Source of the DNA: Methanosphaera sp. BMS
Lineage (GTDB): Archaea; Methanobacteriota; Methanobacteria; Methanobacteriales; Methanobacteriaceae
Reading direction: 5' to 3'
DNA length: 64,000 nucleotides
Assembly (NCBI RefSeq): GCF_003268005.1
Contig: NZ_CP014213.1
Coordinates: 1,426,001 to 1,490,000, forward strand
Shown here: positions 11,597-48,884 of the stretch, one piece after another
Position numbering within the stretch: position 1 is the first letter of the stretch
Layout: each line of letters starts with the position of its first letter
Translations under genes and position numbers: made by a program
The notes under the pieces: generated by a model
The model's database searches: none
Told to the model about the DNA's origin: nothing
The model's input: the letters and a program-made list of their open reading frames with translations, nothing else

Positions 11597-14500
11597 CTAA
11601 TTACTTAATGTAAGAGTTGAATTTGCTTCCAATCTTGGGTAATCAGTTGAAAGTAGTACAGCAGTAATTGTGTAATCTTTTAGTTTCCAACTTTCAGGGA
11701 ATGTGTATTCAAGAACTGCTTCATTGTTAACTATTTTAGCATAGACTACTTTACCGTTTTCATCTTTAAGTGATTTTCCGTTGACTTTAAATACCACTTT
11801 TCCTTCATTAACTACCTTATCATTGTCTGTTAGTGTTGCCTTGAGTGTGATTGGACTTCCCACCTTAGCTGTAACATCTTCAGTAGTTAATTGAGGTTCT
11901 TCAATTGAAGGACCTTCCTCTTCATGTACATTTAAAGTTTCAAGTTCACTTTTAAGCATATGTACCTGACTTGATGCCGTTGACTGTGCCTGTATTGTGA
12001 AATTCTTATCTGCCCATGATTCTGGGATTAGATAATTTTCAATTTTTGCAGTTCCATTTACTATTTTAGCATAGATTATTTTACCGTTTTCATCTTTAAG
12101 TGTTTTACCATTTACCTTGAAGGTTACTTTACCTTTGTTAATATCCTGTGATACTTCATTTTCAAAGTATATGCTTGCCTGTATTGTAGCAGTTTGACCT
12201 TTGATGAAATCGGTTGTATCTACCTTAAGCACATATCCTCTTATGTAATAGTTTATACTTGATTCTGCAGCTGCATGGGTGTTGTTTCCTGCATATTTGA
12301 ATGTTAATACATGATCTCCCGGTTTTTGTGGAGTGTATGTGTATGTGAATGTACCGTCATCACTTGGACCGGCAGTAGCTATTTCCACATCATCTTCATA
12401 TATTGTGATTAGGTCAACATATGTGCCTTCATTTTCATCTGCAAATTTGAATACCCCATTGATTACAGAAGATTCTGATTGATTGAATGCTGTTTCACCA
12501 TCTACTGTTAATTGTATTTCTGTTGCATCAGGTTCTTTGACAATAATGGTAATTATGCTTTCTGAGTGTGCGTGTGTATTGTTTCCAATAAACATGAATG
12601 ACAATTCATGAGAGCCAATTTCTGTTGCTACATATTCATAGCTTAATACACCATCCTGAGAAGGACCCAATAATGTGACAAATTCATCATTATCGCTTAC
12701 CATGATAGATCCAACATAAGTACCTTCATTTTCACCAGCATAAGCAAACAATACATCTACTTTAGCAGTCTCATCAACGTATAATGATTCAGCATCACTA
12801 GTTAACGTGATTTCAGTTGCATCAGGTTCTTTGACTACTATTGTAATAGTATATTCACTGGCTATGTGACTTACGTTACCTGCGAATTTAAATGTTATGT
12901 CATGGCTTCCCACTTCTTTTGCCTGGTAGGTGTATGTTAATTTTCCATCGTCAGCCGGACCTACTGTTGCTATTTGTTCATCGTTGTCTGTAATAGTTAA
13001 TTGTTCTACATAAGTACCTGTTGTTTGATCGACTAATGTGAATAATGCATCTATTTTCGCACTTTCATCTACGAATAATTCGGTAGCGTTGGTAGTTAAC
13101 TGTATTGCTGTAGCGTTAGGTGCATCCACTGTTATTATTATGCTTGATTGACTTTCCGTATGACTTACATTACCAGCAAACTTAAATGTTAGATTATGGT
13201 TTCCCGGTGTTGTTCCATCAAATATGTAGTTAAATACACCATCTGTTCCTGTTGGACCAACTGTTGCTACCTGTTTACCATTATCTGTTACGGTTATTGT
13301 GTTTGCTTTTATGGCTTTGTTAGCTTCTTTGAATGTTCCGGTTATGTTTGCTTTTTCTGTTAGGTATATTGATGTTGCGTTTGATGTTAATGTTATACTT
13401 GTGGTTGCAGGATTTTTTACTGTGATTGTTTGTGTTGCTTCACTTGCAAGATGACTTGCATTTCCTGCAAACTTGAACGTAATGTTATGACTACCAGCAG
13501 TACCGGCAGTATAGGTATAACTTACAACACCATTACTTCCACTAGGACCAACACTGGTTATTTTAGCGTTATTATCATAAACATCCACACTGTTAACCTT
13601 AGCGGCAGCATTTTTAGCCTTGAATGTAGCATTGAATGAAACTTTTTCAGTCACGTAAACACTTGAAGGACTTGCAACTACAACAATAGCAGTCGAAATC
13701 TTATTTACAGTAACGGTTTTATTTGCCTGACTTGCCTGATGACTTACATTACCGGCAAACCTAAAGCTAAGATTATGATTACCTACAACAGTAGACTTAA
13801 ATGTGTAAGTGAATTTTCCAGTATCATCACTACTTACGGTAGCTAACTTCTTAGTACCATTATAAACATCCACACTGTTAACCTTAGCGGCAGCATTATT
13901 AGCCTTAAACGTACCCGTAATAACCAGGCTTTCATTATAGTAAACTGAAGAGTTACCAGCCAATGTGATACTTGTTGCCACAGGATTGTTTACAGTAATT
14001 ACCTTACCGGATTCACTTGCAAGATGACTTGCATTTCCTGCAAACTTAAATGTAATGTTATGACTACCATTAGTACCGGCAGTATAGGTATAACTTACAA
14101 CACCATTACTTCCACTAGGACCAACACTGGTTATTTTAGCGTTATTATCATAAACATCCACACTGTTAACCTTAGCGGCAGCATTTTTAGCCTTGAATGT
14201 AGCATTGAATGAAACTTTTTGAGTCACGTAAACACTTGAAGGACTTGCAACTACAACAATAGCAGTTGGAATCTTATTTACTGTAACGGTTTTATTTGCC
14301 TGACTTGCCTGATGACTTACATTACCGGCAAACCTAAAGCTAAGATTATGATTACCTACAACAGTAGACTTAAATGTGTAAGTGAATTTTCCAGTATCAT
14401 CACTACTTACGGTAGCTAACTTCTTAGTACCATTATAAACATCCACACTGTTAACCTTAGCGGCAGCATTATTAGCCTTAAACGTACCCGTAATAACCAG

Positions 14501-16801
14501 GCTTTCATTATAGTAAACTGAAGAGTTACCAGCCAATGTGATACTTGTTGCCACAGGATTGTTTACAGTAATTACCTTACCAGATTCACTTGCAAGATAA
14601 CTTGCATTTCCTGCAAACTTGAATGTAATGTTATGACTACCTGCCGTAGCAGCAGTATAAGTATAACTTACAACACCATTATTTCCACTAGGACCAACAC
14701 TGGTTACTTTAACACCATTATCATAAACATCAAGACTAGTTACATTAGCGGCGGCATTATTAGCCTTAAATGTAGCATTGAATGCAACTTTTTGAGTCAC
14801 GTAAACACTTGAAGGACTTGCAACAACTGTAATTGTGGTTGGAGCCTTGTTTACGGTAATGGTTTTACTTGCATTTGATGCGAATAAAGTATCGTTTGCT
14901 GCAAATTTAAATGAAATGTTGTATTGACCTGTTTTGGTTGTATTGAATGTGTAGCTGAATACGCCGTTTTCGTTGGATGAAATTGTAGCTAATTTATTAT
15001 TGTTATCATACACAGTTATGTTGGTTGTTTTGGCACCTTTACCTTCAACTTTGAATGTTCCGGTAATATTTAATTTTTCATTCACAACAATTGTGCTTGC
15101 AACATTATTTAAGGTTATTTGTGTAGCTTTTTGTGGTTCTTTGTTGTCTTTGATGGTTACGTCATTATCTGCACTGTTTACATATACGGCAGCATCACCA
15201 ACCAGGGATGTTGAGTTGATACGATTGTTTTTGATTGTGACATTTGTCACTGTCTTATTTACATATACCGCATATTCATCATCAGAGTTAATGATGTTGT
15301 TTTCTATTAGCACGTTTTTTATTTGATTGCTTCTTTTACTGGATAAGTATATTCCATCGGTGATGTTATTGTTTTTAACTGTGAATGTATCTACTGCACC
15401 ATCTCTACTGGTTAGAGTGATTGCCCCATTGATTTGTAAGTTTTCCAGGGTAATGTTTGCAGGAATAGAACTTGAAGAATCACCCGTTTTTACGGATACA
15501 TTACCGTTTATTGTACAGTTTTCCAATGTAATGTTCTTTGTATTTGATGGTATTGTTACATTACCGTTAATTGTATTGTTTGCAAATATCATATTGGATG
15601 ATAAAGTAAGGGAATTTGCAGTATTGTTGTATATCTGAGCATTAGCTGCAGGTACTAACTCACCTTGAACTGTGTTGTTAACTACTATTCCGCCTTCAGG
15701 ACAATATAACTTACAACCATATAATTCATTGTTTATGATTGTTGTGTCAATACTTTGTGGTCTTCCATCTGCCATATACTGTTGTGTAATACCTGTACCG
15801 TTGTAGTAGATCTTATTGTTTGATACAATATTCTCCTTACCACAGATTACAATTCCCCAACGAATGGAAGATGGGTTTGCTGGTCCATATATTGTATTGT
15901 TGTCTATTAAATTGTGGGAATTTAATGTATTTGATGAGGTTATATTTTCATTTACACCCTCAACGTTATATGTTGTCAGATATATTAAATTACCCACCTC
16001 TCCAATACCTCTTACAATATTGTTTCGGATAGTACAGTGACTTGCCCATGCCAATACAAAGGTACTACTTCCACCATTGTTTTCGGTTGTGAACGTGGAG
16101 TTTTCAATGATGATATAGGATGAGTTGTCCCTGATTGAAGTTTGACCCACACCACTACCTACTCTCTGATTTTGTACTTGTGTAGAAATATTGTTTATTG
16201 TAACATGATTGGCATTTTTAACATAAAGCTGTGTATTATAAAGGAATATACCGCTGATATTTGAGTATGATCCCCCTTTAGTAACCATGAAACATGGAAT
16301 CTCATCATCACCAAACATGGATTGAGCGGTTGTATTTAAATAAATACGGCTGTTAGCTTTGGAAGCTGTTATATTTACCGGTTTATCAATTACAAGGGTT
16401 TTACCAGGCCTGTCAATATTGCCCTGGAAATCCAATGTATCACCGGCAGAAACACTGCTTTTTAAACCAAGACTGTCTTCACTGTAATCGAAATAGCTGT
16501 CAATTGTACTATTAGTAATTACTATTGTTTTCGGAGCAGTTTTAATGTTCTGCCCATCTTTTACTATTTTATCATTTGCATTGACATCATTTTCAAAATT
16601 ATCAGACACACTTGCTGTTTTCAAATTGGATTCTTCTTTAACAATCGTTTGAATGTTAACAGAATCTCCCCCAGCATTTTGTGAAATATCCGAAGATGAT
16701 GTTACATCATCAACGGATGCACCTGCAGCTGATACTGCAGATACGCCGATAATCAAGAAAATAATAGCCATTACAAATAAGAATGCTTTCTTATTTGACA
16801 T
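11597..16801 (-). CDS. giant adhesin-like surface protein 1 (beta-helix plus Ig-like repeats)
   Basis: A 1734-residue secreted protein. It starts with a signal peptide (about 1-26, ending SAVSAAG), then a low-complexity Asp/Ser/Asn stretch. Residues about 100-555 are a right-handed beta-helix (pectate-lyase-like repeats such as NNTINGNVTIPSNTKNITLENC). From about 560 to 1440 run about nine Ig-like repeats of roughly 95 residues, each with an ITVY/VDVYDN strand and a GSHNITFKFAGNASH strand. Two C-terminal modules with GKVxFKVNGKxLKDENGK follow. There is no membrane anchor or LPxTG motif; it ends LTLSN. Long adhesin-like proteins of this design are abundant in gut Methanobacteriales and are thought to mediate attachment. 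Near-identical DNA repeats lie inside the Ig region. Confidence 0.92.
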   Translation of the reverse strand: MSNKKAFLFVMAIIFLIIGVSAVSAAGASVDDVTSSSDISQNAGGDSVNIQTIVKEESNLKTASVSDNFENDVNANDKIVKDGQNIKTAPKTIVITNSTIDSYFDYSEDSLGLKSSVSAGDTLDFQGNIDRPGKTLVIDKPVNITASKANSRIYLNTTAQSMFGDDEIPCFMVTKGGSYSNISGIFLYNTQLYVKNANHVTINNISTQVQNQRVGSGVGQTSIRDNSSYIIIENSTFTTENNGGSSTFVLAWASHCTIRNNIVRGIGEVGNLIYLTTYNVEGVNENITSSNTLNSHNLIDNNTIYGPANPSSIRWGIVICGKENIVSNNKIYYNGTGITQQYMADGRPQSIDTTIINNELYGCKLYCPEGGIVVNNTVQGELVPAANAQIYNNTANSLTLSSNMIFANNTINGNVTIPSNTKNITLENCTINGNVSVKTGDSSSSIPANITLENLQINGAITLTSRDGAVDTFTVKNNNITDGIYLSSKRSNQIKNVLIENNIINSDDEYAVYVNKTVTNVTIKNNRINSTSLVGDAAVYVNSADNDVTIKDNKEPQKATQITLNNVASTIVVNEKLNITGTFKVEGKGAKTTNITVYDNNNKLATISSNENGVFSYTFNTTKTGQYNISFKFAANDTLFASNASKTITVNKAPTTITVVASPSSVYVTQKVAFNATFKANNAAANVTSLDVYDNGVKVTSVGPSGNNGVVSYTYTAATAGSHNITFKFAGNASYLASESGKVITVNNPVATSITLAGNSSVYYNESLVITGTFKANNAAAKVNSVDVYNGTKKLATVSSDDTGKFTYTFKSTVVGNHNLSFRFAGNVSHQASQANKTVTVNKIPTAIVVVASPSSVYVTQKVSFNATFKAKNAAAKVNSVDVYDNNAKITSVGPSGSNGVVSYTYTAGTNGSHNITFKFAGNASHLASESGKVITVNNPVATSITLAGNSSVYYNESLVITGTFKANNAAAKVNSVDVYNGTKKLATVSSDDTGKFTYTFKSTVVGNHNLSFRFAGNVSHQASQANKTVTVNKISTAIVVVASPSSVYVTEKVSFNATFKAKNAAAKVNSVDVYDNNAKITSVGPSGSNGVVSYTYTAGTAGSHNITFKFAGNASHLASEATQTITVKNPATTSITLTSNATSIYLTEKANITGTFKEANKAIKANTITVTDNGKQVATVGPTGTDGVFNYIFDGTTPGNHNLTFKFAGNVSHTESQSSIIITVDAPNATAIQLTTNATELFVDESAKIDALFTLVDQTTGTYVEQLTITDNDEQIATVGPADDGKLTYTYQAKEVGSHDITFKFAGNVSHIASEYTITIVVKEPDATEITLTSDAESLYVDETAKVDVLFAYAGENEGTYVGSIMVSDNDEFVTLLGPSQDGVLSYEYVATEIGSHELSFMFIGNNTHAHSESIITIIVKEPDATEIQLTVDGETAFNQSESSVINGVFKFADENEGTYVDLITIYEDDVEIATAGPSDDGTFTYTYTPQKPGDHVLTFKYAGNNTHAAAESSINYYIRGYVLKVDTTDFIKGQTATIQASIYFENEVSQDINKGKVTFKVNGKTLKDENGKIIYAKIVNGTAKIENYLIPESWADKNFTIQAQSTASSQVHMLKSELETLNVHEEEGPSIEEPQLTTEDVTAKVGSPITLKATLTDNDKVVNEGKVVFKVNGKSLKDENGKVVYAKIVNNEAVLEYTFPESWKLKDYTITAVLLSTDYPRLEANSTLTLSN
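13440..14585 (-). repeat. two near-identical 573-bp tandem repeats in adhesin 1
   Basis: Segments starting near 13440 and 14013 are almost identical over 573 bases (191 codons, two Ig-like repeats each). For example ATTTTAGCGTTATTATCATA occurs at about 13560 and again 573 bases later. A third, more diverged copy begins near 14586 with the same spacing. The high identity points to recent duplication or gene conversion, and the copy number may vary between strains. Confidence 0.85.
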
Positions 16802-17145
16802 TTTATTATTAACTCCATTTTGATTATATTATAATATATTCAATAAATAACGAATGAAATAATTATTTCTTGAATGATAATATTTATATCAAAAATAGAA
16901 TATATAATTTACACATTACAAATAATAATAATTAATATTAAAATCAGAAGTTAAAGTACAAATGATTAATCAAATAAAGGTTATTTTAAAAATAATAGCA
17001 TCAAACTTTATAAAAAATAACTATTTTTACAATATTTATCGATGATTTTAAAGAATTTATGTATTTGCTTGAAATAAATCATTTACCAGGAAATTATCCC
17101 CTAATCAGAAGAGAACCTGAAAAAAATAAGGACCAATTCCTTTTG
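16802..17145. other. intergenic region between two adhesin genes
   Basis: The right part is what follows the terminator of adhesin 2, and the left part is the leader of adhesin 1, where GATATAAATATT (read on the minus strand, near 16885) is a likely TATA box and GGAG precedes the ATG by about 11 bases. No additional gene or RNA is apparent. Confidence 0.55.
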
Positions 17146-37394: not shown

Positions 37395-40300
37395 TCAGTT
37401 AACAGTCAAGACTTTGGTATCTTCAAGTCTACCATAGTCGGAAGATATGTATGTAGCCGTGATGTTATATGTACCAGCTTTCATATTTTCAGGTAGCGTA
37501 TATTCTACACTTACCTGTCCATTTACCACTTTGGCATAGATTACTTTACCGTTTGAGTCTTTTACTGTTTTACCATTTACCTTGAATACGACTTTACCAG
37601 TATTTACAGGTACTGCAGCATTTATTGTAGCAGTTAATGTAACTGTTTGGTTAACTGTTGTTGTTACATCCTCGGTAGTTATTGTTGGTTCGGCTGATTC
37701 TGTTGTTACCGTGATTTTTTCTTTGTCACTTGATAACTTGCCTACATCAGCTGAACCTGAGTATACTGCCTGTATGCTTGAGTTTTCTTTTAACCAACTT
37801 TCCGGTACTTCATAATCTTCAATTGTAGCTACACCATTTACGACTTTTGCATAGATGATTTTACCTTGGCCGTTTTTAAGTGTTTTGCCGTTTACCTTGA
37901 AGTATACTTTTCCATTGGATAGGCTGCTTGCCACTTCGTCACCATAGTATATGCTTGCCCGAATGGTTGCAGAACTTCCTACTGTAAATTCGGTCGTGTC
38001 CACTTTTATGGTGTATTCCTTGGCCGGCACTTCATCTGGTATGTTGTTTTCTATTACGTTTGTATCGTCATTTGAGTATACTGCATCATTTCCTGCAGCG
38101 GTTTTCGTTAGGAGGTAGTTGTCAGTTACTATGTTGTTTTTGCTTCCGGTTATGTTTATGGTATTAGTTAGATCTGATGGGTTGTCCACTGTTATGTTGT
38201 TGTATGTGATTGTGTTTGAATCGGAGTTACCCGTTAATTTTATACCTGTTGTTTCTGCCAGGATATTGTCCAGTTCTACTGGCATACCATCCATTTTTCC
38301 TGTTAATGTCATGTTGTTGTATGAGATGATGTTGTTTTTGCTTATGTATGTTCCTATTGCCATTACATAATTGTTGTTGGCGTTGAAGTTATTGTATGTT
38401 ATTTCATTGTTTTGCGTACTCCATAATTCAATTAGGTATACGCTGCTTGAATCTGCTGTTATGTTATTGTATTTTATTACATTGCCTGTTACTTCTGCCA
38501 TGTAGTTTGTTGATACATATATACCATAGGTTACATCTTCTGCTTTTACATAGATGTTGTTGTTTGTCACATTGTTTCTTCTTGCTCCCTGGATTAATTC
38601 CACTGCATTTGCATAGTATGTACCGTAGGATGTTATGTTGTTTGAGTCTATGAGGTTGTCGTTTGCATTATCTGATACTGCTATAGCGTATGTGTACATT
38701 TTAGCTTCTGTTATAATGTTGTTGTTTAATATCCGGTTATTGTCACATGGATTGTTATCACTACCGCTTATCTGTATGGATTCAATTGTACCATAGGCTG
38801 ATGATGTTCCAGTAGCATTTGTTGTGATGTTGTTATCCTGTACCAATACGTTTTCTGACTCTTTTATGACAATTGATGATGTTATAACACCTTTATCGCC
38901 GTAGAAGTCTATATCGGAACATGGACCGATTGTTGTAATGTCACTTGATAATATGTTAACATCATGTGAGTTTACAACTTTTATTGCATGTGTTGAATCC
39001 TCGGTATTGAATTGTGATAATGTGATGTTTTCTATCGTTATGTTAAATGTGTCCACTACCTTTATGATTGACTCGGATGTTTGGTTGTTGTTCATTATGA
39101 CATTTGTTAATTTTGAGTTGTCACTGTTTTGTGCAAATTCAATTGTACAGTTTTCAAATACTGCCTGATTGGTATATGTTGTAAGAGTTACAGGCATATT
39201 GATGAAAATGTCACGGTTTTTGAATACAGAGTCAAATTTAAGTACAGAATTTGGCGTGATGAAGTCCTTAAGCATTCCTTCATCATCGAAGTACTCGGTG
39301 TAGTTTCCATCATTCAATATGATTTCCATAGCTTCAGGCATAGCTGCCGTAGCGGTTATTGTATTTACCGCTTCATTTTGAATTACATTAATTGTGAATT
39401 CTTCGGATTTTACTGTATAAGTGTTTATTGCTTGTCCATCAACCACTTCTACAACATCATCTGCAAATTTACCTTTTTGGGATTCGTATTCAACAGTAAA
39501 TCCACCTGGTAGTGTGTTTGCATAGTCGCTTATTACTCCTTGAGTGTTGTTTAGTTTGTTGAATGTTGTCGTTAGTTCTATGAGGTCATTGTAGTTTATG
39601 TTTGTCAGATCACCTGTCGTAGTAGTCATTATAATCCAATTGTCAACTATTACTTCTGCCGCCGTTTCTTTGTATACATCATCATAATCATCCCATGCCC
39701 AGTACTGTCCGGATGCCACGAATTTTTTCGGGTTATCGTTTGTTGCCCAGTAATTGTTGTTGGCGGTAATTGTTTTTCCATATTCATTTGTGTTGAATAA
39801 TGCACTGATTCCTTCCTGACATATGAATACTGAATTTTCCACATTTGTAGTTCCATAGTAGTTATCTATTATGGATCCGTTGGCTGTTGCCGTGTTATTT
39901 ATGAATATGCATGACTGTATGTTTAATTGTTCACCGTTATTATAGAATACTCCTCCTTCACGTCCCTGTGAGTTTGTCACCTTGTTTTCTATGAAGGTAC
40001 AGTTGTTTACTGTTGTGTTCTTTCTGCTTTCCATTACTCCTCCTCGACCAATGGATGCAGTGTTGTTTATGAATGTTGAGTTTTCAAGTAATGCGGGATA
40101 TTTCTGTCCCATACTGTATATACCGGCAAGTTGTGCTTCATTGTTTTCCATTAATGAATTGGTTATTGTCAATCCACCGTTTAGGATAATCCATCCCTGA
40201 CTGTCTGTTGAACCAAAAACCTTTTTGGTATTTCTTATCGTGGAGTTGTCTATTGTTAGATTTGATGCCGTTCTTACGATTGCTCCCGTGTTGTTTTCTA

Positions 40301-41993
40301 TTAATGAATTCTTAATGGTTAATGTTGAGTTTTGATTGATATCCATTAATATTCCAATCACGTTTCCTCCAAGGTTATATGCATTGTGATTGAATAAGGT
40401 TACATTGTCAAAGGTTACGTTTGAATTTGTGGCATTGACCACTGTTGCTACTATGCCGTATGAATTGTTTATGCTTAGATTTTTAATTACGACATTTGCA
40501 TTAATTATATTGAATACACGTCCTTTGTTAGCATTCAAGTTCATTCCATTTCCATCTATGATGATATCCTTATTGATGGTTATCAGTTCTTCTGATGAAG
40601 CTCGTTTTATACCATTGTTTAAGGTCAATTCCCCATCGCTTTCGGCTATGTAACTTTCAACCGTAGCATAGTTATCCAATGTTGTAGGAGTAATATTGAT
40701 GTTACCTGAAACAATATTCTGTTTTTCAGTTGTTGTGTTATATATTGTTGCATTTACGGAGTAATTTCCGGATGCTACCGGATCTGTTACAAGGTATGTT
40801 CCTATTCCGTCTTGGATATATATCTTGTATTCATAAGTATCTATGATTACATTTACATAACAACCGGATACTGTGTTGCCGTTATCATCATGGACATTTA
40901 CGCTAATGGTAAATTCCTCATCTTCAACTGCGACAAGATCTGTTACTTCTGTAGTCAGTACCGATGCGTTACCTGATCTTATGAATATATCCGAACCGTT
41001 GAATGCGGTATTTCCGGTCATGGTATTGTTTATCAAGCACACATTGTTTGTATCGATTGATATTGCTCCACCCTGTTGTTGGAATGATGGATTTTCACGT
41101 TCAACCTTGTTGGATACAAATTGATTGTTCATGATTGTTGCATTTCCGGAACGAAGTGCTATTGCACCACCACGAACCTCTGCAGTATTGTTTTCAAAGT
41201 AGGAATTGTTTACAATCAGGTATCCCTGTGAATTTATCGCTCCACCATATAACGTTGCATAGTTGTTTAAGAATCTACAGTTATCCACTGTGACACTTTT
41301 TTGACTCCATAATCTAACAACTGCATTATTTGCCCTACAATTGGTAAAGTTGGAATCTTGAATTACGTTAGTTCCACTACCCCTAAGTTCAATTATTCCT
41401 GATACGCATGTGGAGTTATCCACTGATGAATTTATCATAGTAAATGATGAACTTGACTGGGTAGATACCACTGATGCATTATAATTTGTATGAACATTTT
41501 CAAAATTCACGTTTATCAATGTTAACTTTCCATAGTTAACTATTGCAGAGTATTCCCCAAATGTATTCTTAATTGTTAAGTTTTTGATTGTTACATCTGC
41601 ATCGCTTCCTATAACAAATAGGCCACTGTTTGAATTTGCATCAATTACATGATTGTTTCCATCAATACTGATTGTCTTATTGATTGTTATAGGATTTCCT
41701 TCTTCCGTTTTTATATAGTTATCCTCTAATGTGAGGTCATCCGATTCTTCAATAATTTGACTTAACTGTGAAAAGTCCTTATCAGCCGTGTCTTTTTTTA
41801 TTGAGGAACCACTTATTGTATCACCATTTGAATTAGTTATTTCATTATTATCAATATTATCGTATTCAACCGTTTGTGCTGCATCTGAGCCAGAATTGAT
41901 TGAATCGTCAACGTCGGTGGCAAAGCCTACTCCGATCAATGCTATGAATATTATTGAAAATAACAAAAACAATTTCATTTTATTTTTCAACAT
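37395..41993 (-). CDS. giant adhesin-like surface protein 3 (beta-helix)
   Basis: A 1532-residue secreted protein with a signal peptide (about 1-25, ending GVGFATD) and an acidic linker. Beta-helix repeats of the polymorphic-outer-membrane-protein/pectate-lyase type follow (GGAINSQGYLIVNNSYFENN), then an Ig-like insert near residues 345-430. A second beta-helix section spans about 440-780, and a third starts near 900. Two C-terminal modules carry GKVYFKVNGKTLKNGQGK and GKVVFKVNGKTVKDSNGK. It ends VLTVN without an anchor. Its 5' leader can form nested stems (42030-42094). The likely role is attachment at the cell surface. Confidence 0.92.
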   Translation of the reverse strand: MLKNKMKLFLLFSIIFIALIGVGFATDVDDSINSGSDAAQTVEYDNIDNNEITNSNGDTISGSSIKKDTADKDFSQLSQIIEESDDLTLEDNYIKTEEGNPITINKTISIDGNNHVIDANSNSGLFVIGSDADVTIKNLTIKNTFGEYSAIVNYGKLTLINVNFENVHTNYNASVVSTQSSSSFTMINSSVDNSTCVSGIIELRGSGTNVIQDSNFTNCRANNAVVRLWSQKSVTVDNCRFLNNYATLYGGAINSQGYLIVNNSYFENNTAEVRGGAIALRSGNATIMNNQFVSNKVERENPSFQQQGGAISIDTNNVCLINNTMTGNTAFNGSDIFIRSGNASVLTTEVTDLVAVEDEEFTISVNVHDDNGNTVSGCYVNVIIDTYEYKIYIQDGIGTYLVTDPVASGNYSVNATIYNTTTEKQNIVSGNINITPTTLDNYATVESYIAESDGELTLNNGIKRASSEELITINKDIIIDGNGMNLNANKGRVFNIINANVVIKNLSINNSYGIVATVVNATNSNVTFDNVTLFNHNAYNLGGNVIGILMDINQNSTLTIKNSLIENNTGAIVRTASNLTIDNSTIRNTKKVFGSTDSQGWIILNGGLTITNSLMENNEAQLAGIYSMGQKYPALLENSTFINNTASIGRGGVMESRKNTTVNNCTFIENKVTNSQGREGGVFYNNGEQLNIQSCIFINNTATANGSIIDNYYGTTNVENSVFICQEGISALFNTNEYGKTITANNNYWATNDNPKKFVASGQYWAWDDYDDVYKETAAEVIVDNWIIMTTTTGDLTNINYNDLIELTTTFNKLNNTQGVISDYANTLPGGFTVEYESQKGKFADDVVEVVDGQAINTYTVKSEEFTINVIQNEAVNTITATAAMPEAMEIILNDGNYTEYFDDEGMLKDFITPNSVLKFDSVFKNRDIFINMPVTLTTYTNQAVFENCTIEFAQNSDNSKLTNVIMNNNQTSESIIKVVDTFNITIENITLSQFNTEDSTHAIKVVNSHDVNILSSDITTIGPCSDIDFYGDKGVITSSIVIKESENVLVQDNNITTNATGTSSAYGTIESIQISGSDNNPCDNNRILNNNIITEAKMYTYAIAVSDNANDNLIDSNNITSYGTYYANAVELIQGARRNNVTNNNIYVKAEDVTYGIYVSTNYMAEVTGNVIKYNNITADSSSVYLIELWSTQNNEITYNNFNANNNYVMAIGTYISKNNIISYNNMTLTGKMDGMPVELDNILAETTGIKLTGNSDSNTITYNNITVDNPSDLTNTINITGSKNNIVTDNYLLTKTAAGNDAVYSNDDTNVIENNIPDEVPAKEYTIKVDTTEFTVGSSATIRASIYYGDEVASSLSNGKVYFKVNGKTLKNGQGKIIYAKVVNGVATIEDYEVPESWLKENSSIQAVYSGSADVGKLSSDKEKITVTTESAEPTITTEDVTTTVNQTVTLTATINAAVPVNTGKVVFKVNGKTVKDSNGKVIYAKVVNGQVSVEYTLPENMKAGTYNITATYISSDYGRLEDTKVLTVN

Positions 41994-42029
41994 AATCTTT
42001 CAACTGTCCAAATTTTATCATATTAATGA

Positions 42030-48290: not shown

Positions 48291-48369
48291 TATCAATTTA
48301 ACCTCCACAACAATATTTTTTTTTAGAAAAACATCCCGAATAATGTTTAATATGTTATTAATCTTTAAA

Positions 48370-48378
48370 TTTATATAA
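48370..48378 (+). promoter_or_regulatory. TATA box of the candidate RNA gene
   Basis: TTTATATAA lies with its centre 26-28 bases before 48401, the expected archaeal spacing to a start at the foot of the long closing stem of the RNA. Confidence 0.5.
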
Positions 48379-48400
48379 TATTGATTATAAAAAGTAATTA

Positions 48401-48609
48401 CAGTAGGAGAAAATTTTAGTAACATGCAGAGATTATTGTGTGATGTTGGCTCTGCATGCATATTTAATTTGTATAATAACAGTAATTATTTTATCTTCTT
48501 AGTATTTATTGAGCCAGAATCTGGGTGAAATCCCCAGTTTTGTTAATGAGAATATATAACGATATTTCTCCTACTACTTTTAATTTCAATTTTTTTATCT
48601 GTTTTTTTT
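48401..48609 (+). ncRNA. candidate stand-alone structured RNA (about 175-205 nt)
   Basis: AGTAGGAGAAA (48402-48412) pairs perfectly with TTTCTCCTACT (48565-48575), closing a domain of 174 bases. Inside, CATGCAGAG (48423-48431) pairs with CTCTGCATG (48450-48458), and CTGGG pairs with CCCAG around loop TGAAATC (48521-48537). TGGCTC (48447-48452) can also pair with GAGCCA (48511-48516), competing with the first inner stem or forming a pseudoknot. A TATA box lies at the right distance upstream, and T7 and T8 runs follow at 48590-48596 and 48602-48609. It matches no RNA class I can name; SRP and RNase P RNAs are larger. A 34-codon frame from 48424 is an alternative reading. Confidence 0.55.
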
Positions 48610-48884
48610 AAACCGCGCTAACCTACAAGAATTCCGTTTCATGGCTAGTTTTATTATTTAACAATACCCCATCCATATTTCAATAATTAATCTTGTTATT
48701 TTGTTTAGAATATATGGTTAAACTACATCCAATCGACTTGGTAAAACAATTGTCACATACCCTTTAGTAACATTTCAACCAATCACCCAACAGCCAAAAA
48801 TTCTATGTTTTCACTTTTTTAGTTACAAATTATTTTTAATTCCCATTTACATATAATATAATATAATCTTTTAAGGTAAGACAA

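Follow-up and report, generated by a model that had tools for sequence, protein, structure and literature searches.

The window, that is, the whole 64,000-nucleotide stretch of DNA analysed here (G000:C1:1426001-1490000, from a closed genome of 2,868,093 bases), probably contains a real RNA gene at 48402-48575, whose homologue in a second Methanosphaera species carries two arms that are antisense to the leaders of adhesin-like protein (ALP) genes. The RNA family is new to Rfam, while its kind, the archaeal trans-acting antisense sRNA, is already known. The new points are the target class (adhesin-like proteins) and the relocation of the gene, and both the antisense relation and the relocation go beyond what was observed in a preliminary description of the region. 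In the literature searched there is no report of this RNA family, and no sRNA is described in Methanosphaera.

Anatomy of the RNA gene

The ends of the RNA are brought together by stem P1, in which AGTAGGAGAAA (48402-48412) forms 11 base pairs with TTTCTCCTACT (48565-48575), closing exactly 174 nt (48402-48575). The first base of P1 is the predicted transcription start, and the archaeal TATA box TTTATATAA (48370-48378) lies about 26-27 nt upstream of it, on the plus strand like all the features given here. The 9-bp stem P2, formed by CATGCAGAG (48423-48431) and CTCTGCATG (48450-48458), is followed by arm A (48475-48521), which is mostly single-stranded, by the hairpin P3 (TGGGTGAAATCCCCA, 48522-48536, with the 4 bp TGGG/CCCA), and by arm B (48537-48564). 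In the window sequence the P3 pairing extends to CTGGG at 48521-48525 with CCCAG at 48533-48537. Downstream of P1 is a T-rich tract (48577-48609), which would form a U-rich terminator region, and the predicted transcript is about 175-205 nt long. The two stems, the hairpin, the TATA box with its spacing and the T runs had been pointed out in the preliminary description, as had the absence of an overlapping coding gene, and all are borne out; there is no ORF of at least 60 aa overlapping the RNA gene on either strand.

The region 48402-48575 folds with z = -3.1, a value equalled by one of 300 dinucleotide shuffles, and an 11-bp helix spanning 174 nt occurs in two of 100 shuffles. No helix of at least 11 bp with at least five G+C was found in 212 tiles of the window. 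The minus strand folds at least equally well (z = -4.9). Such comparable folding is expected where stems consist of Watson-Crick pairs, and the strand is therefore not given by the fold energy. Assignment to the plus strand is based on the promoter, and on two P2 substitutions in the homologue (below) that are compatible with pairing on the plus strand only.

Conservation in a second species

Among 139 genomes of the family a single homologue was found, 79-81% identical, in Methanosphaera sp. RGIG2546 from goat jejunum (G018). A stem-pattern search picked out the RNA in just two genomes, the window genome (G000) and G018, with one copy in each. BLAST also gave AT-rich matches in G004, G006 and G012, which proved on inspection to be chance. 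With blastn, the window module and G018 give one alignment of 272 columns and 79% identity, which ends at 48343 and 48609; this stretch, from promoter to terminator, is the unit common to the two copies. Identity drops outside it, to 52% in the upstream flank and 42% in the downstream flank. Over the promoter region (48343-48401) identity is 81% and the spacing is conserved, and the terminator region is T-rich in both species and 64% identical. Promoter, stems and terminator thus recur together, in agreement with the preliminary description of an undescribed, stand-alone structured RNA.

Of the 11 base pairs of P1, 10 are unchanged in G018, and P3 retains 14 of its 15 nucleotides and all 4 bp. 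P2 keeps its 9 bp despite two substitutions (C-G to U-G and A-U to G-U), both of which produce G-U pairs on the plus strand and mismatches on the minus strand. Slid controls for stem pairing in G018 were 40-57% paired. Compensatory changes are not countable from two RNA sequences, and the conservation of the P1/P2/P3 structure, as judged from these two, is suggestive. Identity is 91-94% in P1, P3 and the linker, and the arms that face the Shine-Dalgarno (SD) sequence, at 75-76% with a 3-nt insertion, are the fastest-changing inner parts of the RNA.

It had also been proposed that GGCTC (48448-48452) pairs with GAGCC (48511-48515) in competition with P2, as a switch. The pairing is present in the window but lost in the homologue (AGCTC vs AGACT). 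The switch idea is therefore unsupported, and we reject it, since the mutually exclusive pairing is not conserved.

A 34-codon frame beginning at 48424 is indeed open, as was described, and could represent a short protein gene (34 codons in the window, 65 in the relative), given that the two frames open from the same ATG and that an early indel is of 3 nt. However, about 10 of 12 substitutions (hand count) are non-synonymous, a later 1-nt indel shifts the frame, the homologous G018 frame has 65 aa and not 34, and the ATG is inside stem P2. Conservation of this frame instead of the stems had been named as evidence against the RNA; the reverse was found, with the stems kept and the frame not conserved as coding. 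We regard a short protein gene as highly improbable.

No Rfam family matches the RNA at gathering score, and the sole listed match, at chance level, is to snoU54 (E 1.2). A faint resemblance to cobalamin riboswitches had been suggested. It is limited to a GGTGAAAT-type hairpin loop; no riboswitch in Rfam reaches gathering score or matches with an E of 5 or less, and unlike a cobalamin riboswitch the Methanosphaera RNA has no adjacent cobalamin gene, and has its own promoter and a U-rich end. The RNase P RNA and SRP RNA of the genome are elsewhere (2139699-2139993 and 1090563-1090874, respectively). Searches against phages, plasmids and viral contigs gave no meaningful match to the RNA.

Insertion of the module

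The gene order in the window is quinolinate phosphoribosyltransferase, a 153-aa conserved protein, the RNA, a SLAC1-type transporter and a nitroreductase, with 594 bp (48291-48884) separating the 153-aa gene from the transporter. The gap between the same neighbour genes in G006, G018 and G015 is about 100-120 bp and lacks the RNA, which therefore entered the window locus by insertion. In G018 the RNA has an AbrB/MazE-like gene on one side and an Lrp/AsnC regulator on the other, and ALP genes come next. On this comparison of loci, the RNA module has changed its chromosomal position between the two species.

The insertion adjoins a decayed copy (48622-48759) of a dispersed MITE-like repeat of 138-140 bp. 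The repeat has the apparent inverted ends TGTGC[AG]ACAATTA, and three more copies were seen in about 400 kb sampled from G000 (L126:8963-9101, L136:16520-16658 and L141:6637-6776). The RNA module might itself be a miniature transposable element, with the 11-bp arms of P1 as terminal inverted repeats, which would fit its different sites in the two species and the short intergenic region in others. We give this very little credence, however: there is one copy per genome, a target duplication was not seen, the homology reaches about 60 nt past the left arm and takes in the promoter, and the true MITE-like element is the adjacent 138-bp repeat.

Antisense match to adhesin-like protein leaders

The antisense lead came from weak covariance-model matches in the window genome, which lay antisense to the start region of the genes of one family. 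In the proteins of this family MKKIKEVLLFVIVLVLLVGVATA stands at the start and is followed by right-handed beta-helix-like repeats, and they are identified on these grounds as ALPs. The pattern AATAACAGTANTTNTTTTATNTT, which represents a conserved 20-position core, was searched with up to two mismatches and has six sites in the window genome and no other match there: one is the RNA, and the remaining five are ALP starts, four of which show no mismatch. The five ALP genes (G000:C1 731330, 761483, 1047024, 1549765 and 2367956; L048, L069, L033, L049 and L036) have different repeat bodies and a near-identical leader cassette of promoter, 5' UTR and signal peptide, and since they share one leader they amount to roughly one independent case. 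The copy at 731k is truncated to 66 codons. Related ALP leaders are also present in G018, G007 and G006. The window itself encodes two large adhesin-like proteins, both on the minus strand (11600-16828 and 37398-41999); Big_3_5 occurs in both and Beta_helix in the second, and their signal peptides are outside the family matched by the RNA.

The G018 RNA is antisense to ALP leaders along roughly 70 nt, divided into two arms by hairpin P3, which forms an insertion in the match. On the ALP mRNA the match begins at about -41 and ends at about codon 13, and the arms span the mRNA 5' end, the ribosome-binding site and the start codon; position -41 is near the expected start of the mRNA, judged from a TATA-like sequence in the leader. 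Arm A faces the start codon and signal-peptide codons, and arm B the 5' UTR and SD. The predicted duplex with the ALP leader has 17 + 15 continuous base pairs around P3.

The background for these comparisons was sampled: for G000 it comprised the window and about 400 kb from elsewhere in the genome, and for G018 it comprised 659 kb. The G018 scan was unsupervised, with contigs holding ALP leaders (two of the three leaders) included on purpose. Arms A+B together place the ALP leaders at ranks 1 and 2, with scores of 87 and 82 and a next best of 63; a tail fit gives E of about 5e-4 per genome, and dinucleotide shuffling p of about 5e-7. The A+B query has P3 cut out, and this segmentation was chosen after the first alignment, so the ranks of the separate arms matter: ALP leaders are ranked 1 and 3 by arm A alone, and 1 and 2 by arm B alone. 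The third ALP leader in G018 (L079) scores only 49. It also counts against the antisense reading that the ALP leaders are not top-ranked when P3 is left in the query, and that differences in the wobble direction show no consistent preference over those in the mirror direction.

The G018 arms fit the leaders of G000 (score 88) as well as their own (87), and species-specific co-evolution is therefore not clearly seen. At two adjacent columns RNA and leader agree within each species (both read TC in the window genome and CT in G018); this could be co-evolution, and is too little to claim it.

In the window copy, arm A keeps a core at 48475-48497 and is diverged on its SD side (48502-48521), and arm B is strongly diverged. 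Against the genome's own ALP leaders arm A scores 40 and A+B 49 (shuffle p 0.003-0.006, with 0.006 for arm A), and arm B gives no significant match. The arm A match is not unique within a sample of the genome. The score of 49 is not outstanding when set against the best score in an unrelated 464-kb sample, which is 58. The energy of the RNA/ALP duplex is an ordinary -30, and duplex energy taken by itself fails to set ALP leaders apart from gene starts richer in G+C. We also considered the P2 loop against the NLTQN repeat codons of ALP genes and discarded it: the 14-nt exact match has background-level scores, and is absent from the ALPs of G018.

Proposed function

Our working explanation, which we hold with a little under even confidence, is that the RNA is an antisense sRNA that would block translation of ALPs, that its gene relocates, and that in the window species the interaction has eroded or shifted to other targets. 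The antisense mechanism is well supported by sequence in G018 and only partly so in the window species. The transcribed RNA would have its ends clamped by P1 and a 5' hairpin in P2, and its large loop would present arms A and B, both largely unpaired and with P3 between them. In vivo the arms would base-pair in trans with mRNAs of the ALP family over a stretch that begins near the predicted mRNA 5' end, takes in the Shine-Dalgarno sequence and the AUG, and ends at about codon 13. With P3 looped out, this pairing would block translation and repress ALP synthesis. Pairing of A and B would mask the SD and AUG of several ALP mRNAs simultaneously. The arms probably derive from an inverted copy of an ALP leader, the RNA from the leader. 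In the window species, where the SD-facing arms have diverged, the interaction may be weakened, limited to the start and signal-peptide codons, or retargeted. The anatomy, homologue, insertion and antisense similarity on which this draws, the last strong in G018 and partial in the window, are read from the sequences. As a trans-acting antisense sRNA gene would, it stands alone with its own promoter and terminator at the sequence level, and complementarity to a trans-encoded translation-initiation region is present in the G018 copy and partial in the window copy.

Two other explanations have to be weighed. The RNA could be a real gene that arose from an inverted ALP leader and has lost its antisense role in the window species, being now a decaying relic or taken over for other targets. 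The SD-facing arms are the parts that change fastest, and the window arms are not significant genome-wide, which speaks for such a loss; free decay of the whole gene, however, is opposed by the retention of the promoter, P1, P2, P3 and the 10-nt AATAACAGTA core. We think such a loss possible, with a probability well short of even. Somewhat less likely still is a structured RNA of some other function (a protein scaffold, guide or sponge), whose likeness to ALP leaders would have arisen by accident, through its origin or through A+T-rich sequence. A protein could bind the conserved scaffold and linker, and the A+T-rich background yields many partial matches, yet each arm independently ranks ALP leaders first in G018, collinear around P3, and the RNA matches no Rfam family and is distinct from the RNase P and SRP RNAs located elsewhere.

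The antisense explanation has a broader form, in which a relocating archaeal sRNA gene, itself an inverted copy of the leader of its targets, controls a whole family of surface adhesins together and re-tunes its arms after each move. We consider this doubtful.

Relation to known systems and significance

Plant MIRNA genes are born by inverted duplication of target genes. The Methanosphaera RNA gene likewise resembles an inverted copy of its target, and differs in being archaeal and in lacking Dicer-type processing or a long target-derived hairpin. Closer in kind are sRNA162, sRNA41 and loop 2 of sRNA154 of Methanosarcina mazei, which are methanogen intergenic sRNAs too, and for which masking of the ribosome-binding site via a single-stranded region has been proposed or shown (PMC3510493; review PMC5867862). 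Of these, sRNA162 provides experimental precedent for such masking by a methanogen sRNA (PMC3510493). The RNA described here has no established sequence relation to this group, has a different target class in the adhesin-like proteins, has long complementarity (two arms totalling about 70 nt, with a hairpin looped out between them), and its gene has relocated.

The regulation of adhesin-like proteins in gut methanogens has been stated to be an open question (PMC11532034). The host of the window RNA is a rumen organism, relevant to methane emission, and with a defined RNA and a defined predicted target site, one route of ALP regulation becomes testable.
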